The translations under genes and the position numbers were made by a program. DNA of 64,000 bases. Origin: Kribbella sp. CA-293567. GTDB taxonomy: Bacteria; Actinomycetota; Actinomycetes; Propionibacteriales; Kribbellaceae. Below are positions 33,637 through 38,595 of the stretch, one piece after another. Below the pieces are notes generated by a model, which did no database searches, was not told the DNA's origin, and was given only the letters and a program-made list of their open reading frames with translations. Where the stretch lies: positions 7,254,001-7,318,000 of the forward strand of contig NZ_CP114065.1 of NCBI RefSeq assembly GCF_027627575.1, read 5' to 3'. The stretch's first letter is position 1. Each line of letters starts with the position of its first letter.

Positions 33637-34419
33637 CTACCCAGCCGGGTTGTTGAGCGGTGAACGCTCGGCGGAGAGCGCGATCACTTCACAACTCCGC
33701 AGTAGCCAGGCCTGGACGCCGACCAGCCCACCGCTCGCGTAGTCGCGCAAACCCTGCGGGTACGAGCCCGCCAGCTCGTGGTGACCGACCTCGGGCACCG
33801 TGACCGACAACGGGTCGATGCCCTTGGCAATCAACACCGCGCGCTCGGCGGCTCGCGCCACCAGCCCGTTGGCGGTCGGAAAAGGCCGCAGTACCGCGAT
33901 CTCCGCGTGCACGATCGCGGCCACCACCAGCCCCGGCGCGCTGGTCGGCCGGCTCAGCGCCTGGGCCAGTCCGCTCAGTCGCTCCCACATCTCGTCGGCG
34001 GGCGGTGCCGGCCGGAGGCCAGGGATGTCGTCCGGGATCGGCTCGCGGCCGGTCCGGACGTGGCCCATCTGGTCCTCGCTGCCGAGATCGGCCGCCGCCA
34101 ACTGGTGAAGTCTGGTCCAGACCTGTACCGGCGCCGTGGTCACCCGTGGCGCGAGGCTCATCAGCTCACCGGTCATCCGGACAGCTCCGGCCGCCAGACC
34201 GTCACCGTCGCCCCGGCGTACCTCTTCGAGCGTCGACGGACTGCCGGCCAGCGCCGCCGAGGCATGGGCGCCCCGTAACAACGCCTCGGCCGTCATGTCC
34301 GCGCTGACCTTCCGCAGCCCGCGGTCGCGCAACAGCACGTCGACCCCGTCCCGGGCCGCCCTGGCCGCCGAGCCGACCCCTTCGAGTCCTGCCAGCGGTT
34401 CGAACACGTCAGAGGTCAT
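33637..34419 (-). CDS. Fic-like protein with degenerate active site (Rv3662c-like)
   Basis: A 260-residue helical protein similar in place to mycobacterial Rv3662c. The C-terminal half has the helix-loop-helix of the Fic fold, but the AMPylation motif HPFxxGNGR reads LRPFPTANGL near residues 184-193: the catalytic His is Arg and the last Arg is Leu. The upstream GAHASAALAG segment resembles the start of the Fic domain. The enzyme is therefore probably inactive in AMP transfer or has another role. It is divergent from the glycosyltransferase gene by 26 nt. Confidence 0.7.
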   Translation of the reverse strand: MTSDVFEPLAGLEGVGSAARAARDGVDVLLRDRGLRKVSADMTAEALLRGAHASAALAGSPSTLEEVRRGDGDGLAAGAVRMTGELMSLAPRVTTAPVQVWTRLHQLAAADLGSEDQMGHVRTGREPIPDDIPGLRPAPPADEMWERLSGLAQALSRPTSAPGLVVAAIVHAEIAVLRPFPTANGLVARAAERAVLIAKGIDPLSVTVPEVGHHELAGSYPQGLRDYASGGLVGVQAWLLRSCEVIALSAERSPLNNPAG

Positions 34420-34445: not shown

Positions 34446-36668
34446 ATGGCCGCCAGCACCGACTCCGCCGGGTCCCCCCGGTTCAGCATCGTGGTCCCGT
34501 GTCATGCGTCACGGGCCTGGCTGCGGCCGTGCCTGGATTCGGTACTGAGCCAGTCCTGCGCCGACTTCGAGATCATCGCGGTCGACGATGCCAGTCCGGA
34601 CGGCAGTGACCGCATCCTGGACGAGTACGCCGCCGCCGACCCGCGGGTCCGGGTGCTGCACCTGAGCGAGAACGTCGGGCTCGGACTGGCCCGCAACGCC
34701 GGCCTGAAGGAGTGCCGCGGCGACTACGTGCTCTTCCTGGACGCCGACGACACCTACCGGCCCGGCTCGCTCGAGGCGATCGCCCGGCGGATCGAGGCGA
34801 CCGGACGGCCGGACATCGTGATGTTCGACTACGAGCGGATCCACTGGGACGGCCGGGTGGTCCGCAACCAGCGGCACGACGCGTTCGCCCGCGAGGGCGA
34901 CGGCGTCTTCACCGCGGCCGAGCGGCCGGTCTTCCTGACCTTCCTCGAGGTGGTCTGGAACAAGGCGATCCGGCGCGACTTCCTCACCCTGCACGGCTTC
35001 GTCTTCACCGCCGGGTTCTACGAGGACGCGCCGTGGACCTACTCGACGATGCTGACCGCGGAGCGGATCGCCACCCTGGACCAGGTGGTCGTGCACTACC
35101 GGCAGCACCGCACCGGCGGCAACATCCACGCCACCGCCACCCGGCAGCAGTTCGACATCTTCGACCAGTACGACCGGGTGCACGCCTTCATCACCTCCGA
35201 CCCGGCCCTCGCCGGCTGGCGGCGGTTCGCCTTCGACCGGTCGCTGGACCACATCCTGGCCGTCCTGGACAAGCCCGAACGGGTGCATCCGGACGACCGG
35301 GCGGAGTTCTTCCACGCCGCGGCCGCCTTCGCCAAGCGCTGGAAGCCCGAGGGGTACGTCGTCGACCGGACCCGGCGCGGCTTCCGCCGCTGGCAGATCG
35401 TGCACGACGACTACGCGACGTACTGCACGCTGAAGCTGAGCGCCAAGGTGCTGAGCGTGCCCAGCCCGCGCAAGGCGGTCGGCAAACTGCTGCACCGCGA
35501 CCTCGACCCGAACCTCGCGCTCTACGGCGCCTACTGGTTCAAGCAGTACGCCTGCAACCCCCGGGCGATCTACGAGAAGGCCACCGAGCTCGCGCCCCAG
35601 CTGCGCGGTGTCTGGGTGATCGACGCCGACCACGTCGCGGCGATTCCCGAAGGCGTCGAGTACGTCGTCGCGGGCTCCCCGGCGTACGCGAAGCTCTGCG
35701 CCAAGGCGACGTACTTCATCAGCAACATGAACCTGCCGAAGGAGCTCGAGAAGCGCGAGGGGCAGATCCACCTGCAGACCCAGCACGGTACGCCGCTGAA
35801 GACGATGGGCACCGATCTGCGGCACTACCCGGTCGCGGCGAAGGACCTCGACCTGGACGAGCTGATGCGGCAGGTCGACCGGTGGGACTTCAACCTGTCC
35901 GCCAACCGGTACTCGTCGGAGATCTGGGAACGCACCTACCCCGCGCACTTCGAGGAACTGGAGTACGGGTTCCCCCGCAACGACCGGCTGGTGAACGCGA
36001 CGCTGGACGACGTCCGGGCGATCCGCGCGTCCTTCGGCTTCGACGACTCCCACCTGGTGGTGTTCTACGCGCCGACCTTCCGCGACGGCGTCGACTCGGT
36101 TCGTACGCCGTCCGGGCTGGTCGACCTCGGTGGCGACGGCATCCACCTGGACCTCGACCGGCTGGCCGCCGCGGCCGGCGAGCACGGCCGGGTGCTGGTG
36201 CGGACGCACTACTCGCTCTCGAAGCACCCGTCGGCCCGGTCGCCCCGGGTGGTGGACGTCTCCGAGCATCCCCGGGTCGAGGACCTGATGCTCGCGGCCG
36301 ACGTGCTGATCTCGGACTACTCGTCGATCAGCTTCGACTACGCCAACCTCGACCGGCCGATCGTGCTGCTGGTCGACGACCTGGGCAGCTACGACCACAA
36401 CCGCGGGACGTACTTCGACATCACCGCCTTCCCGCCCGGACTGGTGGCACGCTCGCCGGAGGAGTTGCTGTCCGCGTTGCAGACCGGCGCCTTCGCGAAG
36501 GCCGAGGCGGCCAAGCACCGGCAGCTGTTCCGGGAGAAGTTCTGCGAGTTCGACGACGGCCGCGCGGCCGAGCGGGTGGTCCGCCGGCTCTTCCTCGGCG
36601 AGACCGACCTGCCGCCGATCACTCCGCTGGCCGACCGGCACCCGGCTCCGTCACCCCATCGGCTCTGA
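34446..36668 (+). CDS. Bifunctional GT2 glycosyltransferase / CDP-glycerol glycerophosphotransferase
   Basis: A 740-residue two-domain enzyme. The N-terminal GT-A domain (about 15-270) starts SIVVPCHASRAWLRPCL and has the metal-binding FLDADD near 97-102. The C-terminal domain (about 370-720) is TagF/TagB-like: QTQHGTPLK near 445, FYAPTFRDG, and SDYSSISFDYANLDRP near 623, which contain the His, Asp and Ser residues of CDP-polyol phosphotransferases. It should add a sugar and a polyol-phosphate to a teichoic-acid-type polymer at the inner membrane face. TAGGAT at 34432-34437 lies 8 nt before the ATG with no ribosome binding site, so the message is probably leaderless. Confidence 0.9.
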   Translation: MAASTDSAGSPRFSIVVPCHASRAWLRPCLDSVLSQSCADFEIIAVDDASPDGSDRILDEYAAADPRVRVLHLSENVGLGLARNAGLKECRGDYVLFLDADDTYRPGSLEAIARRIEATGRPDIVMFDYERIHWDGRVVRNQRHDAFAREGDGVFTAAERPVFLTFLEVVWNKAIRRDFLTLHGFVFTAGFYEDAPWTYSTMLTAERIATLDQVVVHYRQHRTGGNIHATATRQQFDIFDQYDRVHAFITSDPALAGWRRFAFDRSLDHILAVLDKPERVHPDDRAEFFHAAAAFAKRWKPEGYVVDRTRRGFRRWQIVHDDYATYCTLKLSAKVLSVPSPRKAVGKLLHRDLDPNLALYGAYWFKQYACNPRAIYEKATELAPQLRGVWVIDADHVAAIPEGVEYVVAGSPAYAKLCAKATYFISNMNLPKELEKREGQIHLQTQHGTPLKTMGTDLRHYPVAAKDLDLDELMRQVDRWDFNLSANRYSSEIWERTYPAHFEELEYGFPRNDRLVNATLDDVRAIRASFGFDDSHLVVFYAPTFRDGVDSVRTPSGLVDLGGDGIHLDLDRLAAAAGEHGRVLVRTHYSLSKHPSARSPRVVDVSEHPRVEDLMLAADVLISDYSSISFDYANLDRPIVLLVDDLGSYDHNRGTYFDITAFPPGLVARSPEELLSALQTGAFAKAEAAKHRQLFREKFCEFDDGRAAERVVRRLFLGETDLPPITPLADRHPAPSPHRL

Positions 36669-36680
36669 CCGGTTCTCGTG

Positions 36681-36686
36681 CATAAT
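36681..36686 (+). promoter_or_regulatory. -10 element of the argS leader transcript
   Basis: CATAAT lies exactly 7 nt before the ATG of the arginine-rich leader ORF at 36694. Transcription from it would begin on or beside that ATG, making the leader ORF leaderless; no convincing -35 hexamer is seen. Confidence 0.55.
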
Positions 36687-36693
36687 GGTCGGC

Positions 36694-36765
36694 ATGTCGA
36701 CCAGCCCGGTGATCGTGAGCGCCTTGCGCGATCGCTCCGGCCTGCGACGACGACGCACTGTCTGA
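36694..36765 (+). CDS. Arginine-rich 23-residue leader peptide of argS
   Basis: ATG at 36694 to TGA at 36763-36765 encodes 23 residues, six of them Arg, with the run CGA CGA CGA CGC at codons 18-21. CGA is a rare Arg codon in high-GC actinobacteria, so translation of this run should be sensitive to charged tRNA-Arg. The -10 element 7 nt upstream suggests leaderless initiation. The ORF ends 45 nt before argS, and its Arg codons overlap an RNA segment able to pair with the argS ribosome-binding region. I read it as an attenuator peptide; it has no visible function as a protein. Confidence 0.72.
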   Translation: MSTSPVIVSALRDRSGLRRRRTV

Positions 36766-36803
36766 ACACCTCAGCCCTGTTCCGGTGCCTCGTCCTGAAG
36801 GAC
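36749..36803 (+). promoter_or_regulatory. Candidate translational attenuator of argS
   Basis: Two alternative pairings are visible. A small hairpin GTCC-TGAA-GGAC (36792-36803) covers the argS Shine-Dalgarno AAGGA (36798-36802). A longer pairing joins GACGACGCAC (36749-36758, within the Arg codons) to GTGCCTCGTC (36785-36794) with 9 of 10 matches and uses the left arm of that hairpin. A ribosome stalled on the Arg codons would change which structure forms. The direction of control is inferred, not shown. Confidence 0.5.
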
Positions 36804-36810
36804 TTCTGTC

Positions 36811-38595
36811 ATGTCCGCTGTGCTGTCCATTCTTGCCACCAGACTCTCCGACGCCGTCACGGCCGCCTTCGGCGCGCAGTACGGCGTACTCGATCCTGAA
36901 CTGCGGGCGGCGACCAGGCCCGAGTTCGGTCATTTCCAGACCAACCTCGCGCTGCGGCTCGCGCAGCAGTTGCCGGAGGAGCTCCGGCAGCCACCCCGTG
37001 CGATCGCTCAACAGCTGGTGGCCGCGCTCGACCTGACCGGGATCTGCGAACCGGCCCAGATCGCGGGACCAGGGTTCGTGAACCTCACGTTGCTGCCGTC
37101 GACCCTTGCGGCCGGCGTCAACGAGCCGATCGCTTTCGCATCGCGCGGCGAGCGCGTGGTGGTCGACTACTCACAGCCCAACGTCGCGAAACAGATGCAC
37201 GTCGGCCACCTGCGGTCGACCGTGATCGGCGACGCCCTGTGCAACGTACTGCGGTTCGTGGGGTACGACGTCGTCCGGCAGAACCACGTCGGCGACTGGG
37301 GTACCCAGTTCGGCATGATGGTCGAGCAGGTGCTGTTCGAGGGACTGGCGGTGGAATCCCTTGATATCGAGGGGCTGCAGCAGCTCTACCAGCGCGGCCG
37401 GAAGCATTTTGATGCCGACGGCAACTTTGCGGACCTGTCCCGGGCGCGGGTGGTGCGGCTGCAGTCGGGTGACGCGGAGACGCTGGCGATCTGGCGGCAG
37501 ATGGTCGAGGTGTCGCTGGTCGAGTTCGACCGCATCTATGCCCAGCTGGGATCGCCCTTGACGCGCGCCGAGGTCGTCGGCGAAAGCGCCTACAATGACC
37601 GATTGCAAGGGGTTGTGGACGATCTGACAACGGAAGGGCTGCTGACGGAATCGGACGGGGCGCTGTGTGCGTTCCTGCCCGGGTTCGCCGGACGGGACGG
37701 TACGCCGCTGCCGGTGATCGTGCGGAAGTCCGATGGCGGGTTCGGCTACAGCGCGACCGACCTGGCGGCGGTGCGACATCGGGTCGACGAGCTGGCGGCG
37801 GACCGGATCGTCTATGTGGTCGATCATCGGCAGGGGCTGCACTTCCAGCAGATCTTCGCGCTCTGCCGGGCGGCCGGGTGGTTGCCGGACGGGGTCCGTG
37901 CCGAACATGTTGCCTTTGGCACCGTCCTGGGCACGGACGGGAAGCCGTTCAAGACCAGGGACGGCGGCACCGTGCGGCTGGCGTGGCTGCTGGACGGAGC
38001 GGTGGCACGGGCCAGAGCGCTGCTCGACGAGCGGCACGGCGACGACGGCGCCCGGACGGTCGGCGGTGGTGGCGCAGGCAGCAGTGAGGGCGTACGAGCT
38101 GCCGGTGGGATGGATGTCGCGACGAGAGCGGCCGTCGCCGGCGCGGTGGGGATCGGCGCGATCAAGTACGCCGATCTGTCCAGCGACCGGATCAACGACT
38201 ACGTGTTCGATCTCGACCGCATGGTGGCGATGAACGGCAACACCGGACCGTACCTGCAGTACGCGCACGCCCGGCTCTCCCGGCTACTCGCCAAGGCCGG
38301 TGAAGCTCCTGGCAAGGTCACCGTGCTCACCGAGCCGGCCGAGCAGCGGTTGGCGTTGCTGTTGAGCGGGTTCGACGACTGCGTCGTACAGGTCGCGGAG
38401 ACTCTGCAGCCACATCGCTTGTGCACCTACCTGTTCGAGGTGGCCAGCGCACTGTCCGCGTTCTACGAGCAGTGCCCGGTGTTGAGCAGCACGGGTGAGA
38501 CGAGAGCCAGCCGGCTGGCCTTGTGCGCGGCGACCCGGGACGTGTTGCAGGATGGGCTGAACCTGCTGGGCATCGACGCGCCCGGGACGATGTGA
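36811..38595 (+). CDS. argS: Arginine--tRNA ligase
   Basis: A 594-residue class I synthetase charging tRNA-Arg. The N-terminal Add1-like domain is followed by the signature QPNVAKQMHVGHLRST, with HVGH at about 130-133 (HIGH motif). The KMSKS region is reduced to KPFKTRDGG near 378, as in many ArgRS enzymes, and the C-terminal DALR domain is present (NTGPYLQYAHARLSRLL). Residues about 409-433 are a Gly/Asp/Ala-rich insertion just after the KMSKS region, unusual in length. Translation starts at ATG 36811 with AAGGA 8 nt upstream. It is preceded by an Arg-rich leader and followed 17 nt later by the esterase gene. Confidence 0.95.
   Translation: MSAVLSILATRLSDAVTAAFGAQYGVLDPELRAATRPEFGHFQTNLALRLAQQLPEELRQPPRAIAQQLVAALDLTGICEPAQIAGPGFVNLTLLPSTLAAGVNEPIAFASRGERVVVDYSQPNVAKQMHVGHLRSTVIGDALCNVLRFVGYDVVRQNHVGDWGTQFGMMVEQVLFEGLAVESLDIEGLQQLYQRGRKHFDADGNFADLSRARVVRLQSGDAETLAIWRQMVEVSLVEFDRIYAQLGSPLTRAEVVGESAYNDRLQGVVDDLTTEGLLTESDGALCAFLPGFAGRDGTPLPVIVRKSDGGFGYSATDLAAVRHRVDELAADRIVYVVDHRQGLHFQQIFALCRAAGWLPDGVRAEHVAFGTVLGTDGKPFKTRDGGTVRLAWLLDGAVARARALLDERHGDDGARTVGGGGAGSSEGVRAAGGMDVATRAAVAGAVGIGAIKYADLSSDRINDYVFDLDRMVAMNGNTGPYLQYAHARLSRLLAKAGEAPGKVTVLTEPAEQRLALLLSGFDDCVVQVAETLQPHRLCTYLFEVASALSAFYEQCPVLSSTGETRASRLALCAATRDVLQDGLNLLGIDAPGTM

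Follow-up and report, generated by a model that had tools for sequence, protein, structure and literature searches.

A probable arginine-codon leader peptide upstream of an auxiliary arginyl-tRNA synthetase gene in Kribbella

The window, i.e., the whole stretch of 64,000 nucleotides of Kribbella sp. CA-293567 that was analysed, contains an arginyl-tRNA synthetase gene, argS, preceded on the same plus strand by a short open reading frame rich in arginine codons. A -10 hexamer, CATAAT (36681-36686), lies 7 nt upstream of the ATG of this leader ORF (36694-36765), a leaderless geometry. The ORF, identified by reading the sequence and by its conservation in Kribbella, consists of 23 codons (MSTSPVIVSALRDRSGLRRRRTV) followed by TGA (36763-36765). 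Six of its codons specify Arg, and four of them, CGA CGA CGA CGC, form an uninterrupted run at codons 18-21 (36745-36756), which is conserved in Kribbella and is the presumed sensor. A spacer of 45 nt separates the leader TGA from the ATG of argS (36811) and includes the argS Shine-Dalgarno sequence GAAGGAC (36797-36803), whose GGAC can also pair with GTCC at 36813-36816, across the start codon. Because a second in-frame ATG, at 36685, overlaps the -10 hexamer, the assignment of the start to position 36694 rests on promoter geometry. This layout had been described in a first-pass annotation of the DNA, and direct reading of the sequence, with the segments rechecked, agrees with its coordinates.

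The argS gene (36811-38595) encodes a protein of 594 amino acids with the signatures HVGH and KPFKTR, which matches TIGR00456 with 457.3 bits (cut-off 261.65) as well as Pfam; judged by these matches, it is a full ArgRS. The primary argS is found elsewhere in the same 7.6-Mb genome, at C1:2365955-2367511, and matches the window gene in two pieces (33-34%). By this comparison, the window argS is an auxiliary copy. A primary argS was also present in each of the 16 other genomes examined for it, of which 13 have an Arg leader and 3 lack one. One Kribbella genome carries a third, more distant ArgRS-like gene (G030:C1:2198626-2200338; 50-55% identity). With regard to a mobile origin, a plasmid collection, the only collection searched with that stretch, held no similar DNA. 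An anti-phage role of the auxiliary ArgRS was considered and set aside, as PADLOC gave no match. A protein encoded on the minus strand of the window, at 33637-34419, has a Fic/DOC match of 23.6 bits, just below the Pfam cut-off of 24 bits.

Short ATG ORFs in the window offer 292 start-codon readings (145 on the plus and 147 on the minus strand). Four consecutive Arg codons occur in 5 of them, corresponding to three distinct ORFs, and in two of these, at 36694 and 12305, the ATG also follows a -10-like hexamer at a distance of 6-8 nt. Judged from the window alone, this combination is uncommon but not unique. The fold of the leader region as a single sequence is likewise unremarkable (z -1.21). 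The decisive evidence for the putative leader is its conservation.

The upstream DNA was read in all 38 Kribbella genomes (30 loci and 8 regions). A close copy of the auxiliary argS was found in each of the 38 genomes searched, with a best E value of 3e-179 or lower. The -10 hexamer is CATAAT in 33 genomes and CATACT in 5, and it precedes the leader ATG by 7 nt in 37 of the 38 and by 6 nt in the remaining one. An intact leader with at least three consecutive Arg codons near its stop was present in 37/38 genomes. Poor conservation of the Arg run among relatives, which the first-pass annotation had named as an argument against its own proposal, was thus not what we observed: 37 of 38 Kribbella genomes retain the run, and other families have different Arg leaders. 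The exception is L059 (G018), in which a one-base insertion abolishes the Arg frame and fuses the leader in frame with argS; as read from its sequence, L059 is a natural loss of the presumed sensor. The possibility that the leader is merely the N-terminal part of argS was ruled out, since a stop codon and a gap of 41-57 nt separate the two in 37/38 Kribbella genomes, the fusion being confined to L059. The N-terminal half of the leader varies across the genus, and is gone altogether in the minimal leaders MRRRRTA (L147), MTRRRQTA (L148) and MRRRQTA (L152); the C-terminal T-V or T-A is mostly conserved.

An exact pattern, consisting of CATAAT, 6-8 nt, ATG, 24-54 nt and CGACGACGA, occurs once in each of 29 of the 38 Kribbella genomes, always at the argS leader, and the reversed control pattern occurs in none of the 38. 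In the nine genomes without the exact pattern, the hexamer is CATACT, the leader is minimal or the CGA run is shorter. No other gene under the same leader was found by the exact pattern, either in the 29 genomes that hold it or in the other 9; a looser pattern gave one further site in the genome of the window, with 3 mismatches. A record titled Streptomyces sp. SID13031 (L005 / L051, G028) carries the Kribbella locus, and its genome was placed in the genus of the window; the title is probably wrong.

Part of the leader also takes part in an RNA structure. Segment A (36749-36760), which lies within the Arg codons and the next two codons, pairs as the 5' arm of a long stem with segment D (36783-36794), the 3' arm, which ends 2 nt before the Shine-Dalgarno sequence. 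The stem surrounds an inner hairpin formed by GAACA (36764-36768), which overlaps the leader stop, and TGTTC (36778-36782). The first-pass annotation had drawn a pairing of 36749-36758 with 36785-36794 in 9 of 10 positions; that pairing is indeed there, and the helix extends by 36759-36760 with 36783-36784. Compensatory changes among Kribbella genomes support this pairing between the Arg codons and the nucleotides that precede the Shine-Dalgarno sequence. In an alignment of 38 Kribbella sequences (37 distinct), two-sided changes occur in four A:D pairs and 11 cells; shuffles average 1.0 for each, and 1 and 0 of 500 shuffles came as high. The cognate A:D duplexes have a mean energy of -16.24 kcal/mol versus -14.89 kcal/mol for permuted ones (34 unique pairs; 0/5000 permutations as low). 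The shuffle and permutation counts, here and below, are not probabilities, because the relatedness of the genomes is ignored in them. When the A:D partners were slid against each other by 1-3 columns, 0-1 double-change pairs remained.

RNAalifold, to which no structure was supplied, recovered 11 of the 17 drawn pairs, three of them with double changes, and added a four-pair helix between the Shine-Dalgarno sequence and the start codon region (columns 78-81 with 92-95), which has no two-sided changes. Because a second Kribbella group has a shorter D, the outer pair 9-58 is unpaired in 18 of the 37 rows and the outer pair 10-57 in 22. In the inner hairpin, four pairs are invariant and the fifth is paired in 34 of 37 distinct rows, so that it carries no covariation information. 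Helix A:D is still kept in L148 and L152, where the fourth codon of the run is no longer Arg. These comparisons support the view that the leader codons join an RNA structure near the regulated signal in Kribbella. Two further observations concern the same region. The loop of the inner hairpin (36769-36777; CCTCAGCCC after GAACA) resembles an anti-Shine-Dalgarno sequence and is fairly well conserved in Kribbella, for which we found no reason; and L074 carries about 13 extra nt between D and the Shine-Dalgarno sequence, compared with its near relatives.

The codons of the leader are themselves unusual. CGA accounts for 110 of 203 Arg codons in the Kribbella leaders, and for 20 of 1139 (about 2%) in the parts of argS that were read. 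In all 37 intact Kribbella leaders the run opens with CGA, its first three codons being CGA-CGA-CGA in 36 of these and CGA-CGA-CGC in one. Since this first CGA is always kept, although helix A:D as drawn includes it in L076 alone, the identity of the codon seems to matter in its own right. Among the leader groups outside Kribbella, the CGA share of Arg codons in leader versus argS is 44% vs 4% in M1, 43% vs 3% in KN, 14% vs 2% in M2, and 14% vs 0/68 in M3.

Different Arg-rich leaders precede the same type of argS in Planosporangium (L109), in the Kineococcus family (Kineosporiaceae; L110, L142-L145) and in many Micromonosporaceae, the family to which Planosporangium belongs. What the leaders of these other families have in common is Arg richness, not peptide sequence. 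One genome of a further family (L157), kept outside the tallies, has the Arg-rich leader MSRPRAPRRTAMVADRRPALRRLRRPVR, with CATACT 7 nt before its ATG. The score of a locus was the highest number of Arg in any 12 codons of the short ORFs lying up to 260 nt upstream, and 40 dinucleotide shuffles of each locus served as control. At least 5 Arg in 12 codons were found at 33 of 38 Kribbella loci (6.6 in shuffles), 32 of 50 Micromonosporaceae loci (7.5 expected) and all 5 Kineococcus-family loci (0.8 expected). The other Actinomycetes showed no excess of Arg-rich ORFs at the auxiliary argS type (10/82; 10.1 expected). At the primary argS, the same scan gave 4/17 (1.9 expected), a small excess that cannot be called real. 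The 50 Micromonosporaceae loci are L109, 29 further loci and 20 hand-picked down the list, 220 of 300 genomes having a match; the five Kineococcus-family loci are all the matches among its 12 genomes; and the 82 others were taken from the 122 class genomes, out of 394, that gave a match, plus L111, L112 and L154 (a third ArgRS copy in one Kribbella genome), and include L101, a Micromonosporaceae duplicate with a leader.

A -10-like hexamer 6-7 nt before an in-frame start was found in all 21 leaders examined from groups M2 (8/8), M3 (7/7) and KN (6/6), in a test with a background of 3.7% per position that allows several starts per ORF and leaves out L113, L130, L135, L137 and L212; the leaderless geometry was seen in 0/9 leaders of M1. 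Pairing between the leader end and the spacer reached an individual p<0.05 in 13/37 Kribbella leaders, and in the four groups outside Kribbella (1/9, 0/8, 0/7 and 0/6) it was not above that of shuffled spacers. Such pairing was therefore rejected as a general feature. On a quick ArgRS tree of 78 sequences, with Kribbella thinned to 10, labels assigned by hand and L059 counted as having a leader, the leader label changes 5 times, versus a mean of 26.3 when shuffled. The history of the leader would be either one of several gains or one of old presence with losses.

Taken together, these data make it probable that the Kribbella locus encodes a leaderless Arg-codon leader peptide that controls the auxiliary argS by ribosome-mediated attenuation. 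Attenuation by charged tRNA-Arg fits because the frame, the position, the CGA run and the promoter are conserved, and because the downstream gene is an Arg synthetase. From the promoter geometry, transcription would start at or beside the leader ATG, and a ribosome would translate the 23-codon ORF. When Arg-tRNA is well charged, this ribosome would clear the CGA run, terminate and leave; A would then pair with D before the argS Shine-Dalgarno sequence, forming the long stem around the inner hairpin that the compensatory changes support, and this stem would inhibit argS. If arginine is limiting or the primary ArgRS is inhibited, so that little tRNA-Arg is charged, the ribosome would be expected to stall on the CGA codons and cover A; the stem would then stay open and argS expression would go up, a sign we infer from known leaders of this type. 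The A:D stem would act on ribosome loading or on transcription.

The first-pass annotation had proposed another read-out, in which a 4-bp hairpin, GTCC-TGAA-GGAC (36792-36803), covers the Shine-Dalgarno sequence. This hairpin is present and is exclusive with the end of A:D. Drawn in this way, A:D would keep D off the Shine-Dalgarno sequence, with argS on at read-through and off at an Arg stall; i.e., a stalled ribosome would free D and favour the hairpin. We consider this unlikely, as the sign is wrong for a synthetase, which would be shut off when its product is scarce. For 37 of the 38 Kribbella genomes, a putative helix of at least 4 bp joining D to the Shine-Dalgarno sequence can be drawn, which speaks for the proposal, but this is a raw count, not set against chance, and such helices are short, at 4-6 bp, most of them containing 1-3 G-C pairs. 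In equilibrium folding with a ribosome at the first Arg codon, opening of the Shine-Dalgarno sequence becomes easier in 4/37 Kribbella leaders and is on average 0.86 kcal/mol harder, again as the proposal has it, and opening of a longer RBS window becomes easier in 9/37 and is on average 0.53 kcal/mol harder. A third window (-18 to -4), computed for 12 chosen Kribbella leaders, tends the opposite way, opening being 0.6-0.9 kcal/mol easier on average when the run is occupied; this window does not discriminate, however, because a ribosome at the leader stop codon, which also covers A, gives the same effect (1.1 kcal/mol easier). For the other leader groups, the mean changes in this third window are near zero. 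Mutually exclusive structures can be drawn, but ribosome-constrained equilibrium folding gives no clear switch and does not support unmasking of the Shine-Dalgarno sequence by this route. Of the earlier interpretation, the link between an Arg-codon leader and argS is supported and the Shine-Dalgarno switch is not; the auxiliary status of argS had been missed. Transcription attenuation, a sub-case of the attenuation model that we favour and distinct from it in the read-out alone, would have A:D and a pyrimidine-rich tail act as a terminator that the stalled ribosome prevents. It is consistent with a stable, covarying A:D whose segment A lies inside the sensor codons, and with the run of five U at the stem end in L148 and L152. 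We nevertheless regard it as rather improbable, since no run of U comes after the window stem, where the next 8 bases are CTGAAGGA, and the tails in Kribbella are otherwise short and mixed. A classical terminator, i.e., a GC-rich hairpin and U tract before the gene, was not found in the window. Consensus scans of window positions 36600-36900 and of L148 gave no sigma-70 promoter with a -35 element and no terminator, the terminator scan covering loops of 3-8 nt and hence being blind to the A:D stem. Because the Shine-Dalgarno switch has the wrong sign, the folding does not discriminate and the window stem lacks a U tract, we favour the simpler proposition that a stalled ribosome keeps A:D from forming.

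Two other explanations do not involve the charging of Arg-tRNA. R-X-R motifs promote macrolide-dependent stalling, and a leader that senses a drug or undergoes nascent-chain arrest could explain both the consecutive Arg residues and the mostly conserved C-terminal T-V or T-A. Erythromycin also raises argS in M. abscessus, for which the accessible part of that report gives no argS leader (PMC4974804). Such a sensor is nonetheless very unlikely, given that the downstream gene is an Arg synthetase, that the leaders of other families are alike in Arg richness and not in peptide sequence, and that the preference for rare CGA is relevant to the tRNA or the RNA, not to the peptide. We find it hardly credible, finally, that there is no regulator at all and that the ORF is a chance product of GC-rich CGA repeats serving the RNA stem alone. 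Although GC-rich shuffles do yield some Arg-rich ORFs (the 6.6 of 38 given above) and A overlaps the Arg codons, the frame, the start, the stop and the -10 hexamer are all conserved, the first CGA is outside the helix as drawn except in L076, Arg leaders occur in families without detectable pairing, and the other Actinomycetes show no excess. As to known RNA families, Rfam gave none at the gathering score in the window, nor any in five loci with E values of up to 0.5, and a T-box or other known RNA family was ruled out on this ground.

The Kribbella leader has the form of an amino-acid-codon leader, i.e., a short upstream ORF in which several codons in succession specify the amino acid that the downstream gene handles. 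In design it comes closest to the leaderless polycysteine ORFs of mycobacteria and to the trpS and leuS attenuators predicted for Streptomyces, and in function to the auxiliary TrpRS1 of Streptomyces; none of these senses arginine. Vecchione and Sello are said to have placed the auxiliary trpRS1 of Streptomyces coelicolor under ribosome-mediated attenuation in 2010. Like the Kribbella argS, trpRS1 is a second synthetase gene, and it is inducible under this reported attenuation, with Trp in place of Arg. We know of no ArgRS inhibitor resistance for the Kribbella auxiliary ArgRS. An inducible back-up synthetase fits the arrangement and would be comparable to TrpRS1, which is indolmycin-resistant (PMC9437257). 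The polycysteine ORFs (Canestrari et al. 2020, as cited in PMC13236596, PMC9031893 and PMC9094748) are, like the Kribbella leader, actinobacterial leaderless short ORFs with a one-amino-acid codon run before a gene, and their downstream gene responds to that amino acid, as we propose by analogy for Kribbella. As described in these sources, they have a Cys run and a cysteine synthesis target, whereas the Kribbella leader has an Arg run and an auxiliary aminoacyl-tRNA synthetase, and its codons, unlike theirs, pair with a stretch beside the Shine-Dalgarno sequence. The Kribbella leader may thus work like the polycysteine attenuators, but it is not a member of that class: the leaderless geometry, as read from sequence, is found in 38/38 Kribbella genomes, and the run is of Arg, not Cys.

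The trpS and leuS attenuators predicted for Streptomyces (Seliverstov et al. 2005, PMC1262725) also place an amino-acid-codon leader before a synthetase gene in Actinobacteria, but unlike the Kribbella leader they are of the classical kind, built from a terminator and an antiterminator hairpin. The main text of that study, as far as it is available, does not contain 'argS' and gives no structures for other pathways in Actinobacteria; it does mention arginine T-boxes in other bacteria (PMC1262725). A T-box, like our proposal for Kribbella, is an RNA control of arginine genes by tRNA charging, but it binds the tRNA directly and without a leader peptide, and the Kribbella locus has no Rfam match. 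The ilvB1 attenuator of Mycobacterium tuberculosis is likewise described as an actinobacterial leader ORF with regulatory codons, followed by a U-tract terminator and an antiterminator (PMC13236596), neither of which was found at the Kribbella locus. In the literature searched, which takes in few subscription papers, no Arg-codon leader was found for any bacterium, nor any such leader of argS. The fungal arginine attenuator peptide also answers to arginine, as proposed for the Kribbella leader, but it is eukaryotic, senses arginine via the nascent peptide, lowers expression and is not known to contain an Arg codon run.

Amino-acid-codon leaders are known for several amino acids, and Kribbella would add an arginine version. 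Its architecture is simple, being leaderless and reduced in the extreme to M-R-R-R-R-T-A, and it is found genus-wide, and in different forms in other families, before a spare synthetase. A wider reading, which we offer tentatively as possible, is that sensors of Arg-tRNA charging arose several times before one type of auxiliary ArgRS across the Actinomycetes, using deliberately slow CGA codons. The arrangement would then imply natural inhibitors or analogues in soil that disable the primary ArgRS. With the leader in view, both the purpose of the auxiliary ArgRS and a possible choice of CGA for sensitivity to tRNA charging become directly testable.

A separate observation concerns eight Micromonosporaceae loci (L119, L121-L123, L128, L131, L141 and L101). 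These have a strong hairpin between leader and argS, together with other segments complementary to one another, among them the sequence in front of argS, and the computed cost of opening their RBS region is 12-18 kcal/mol.
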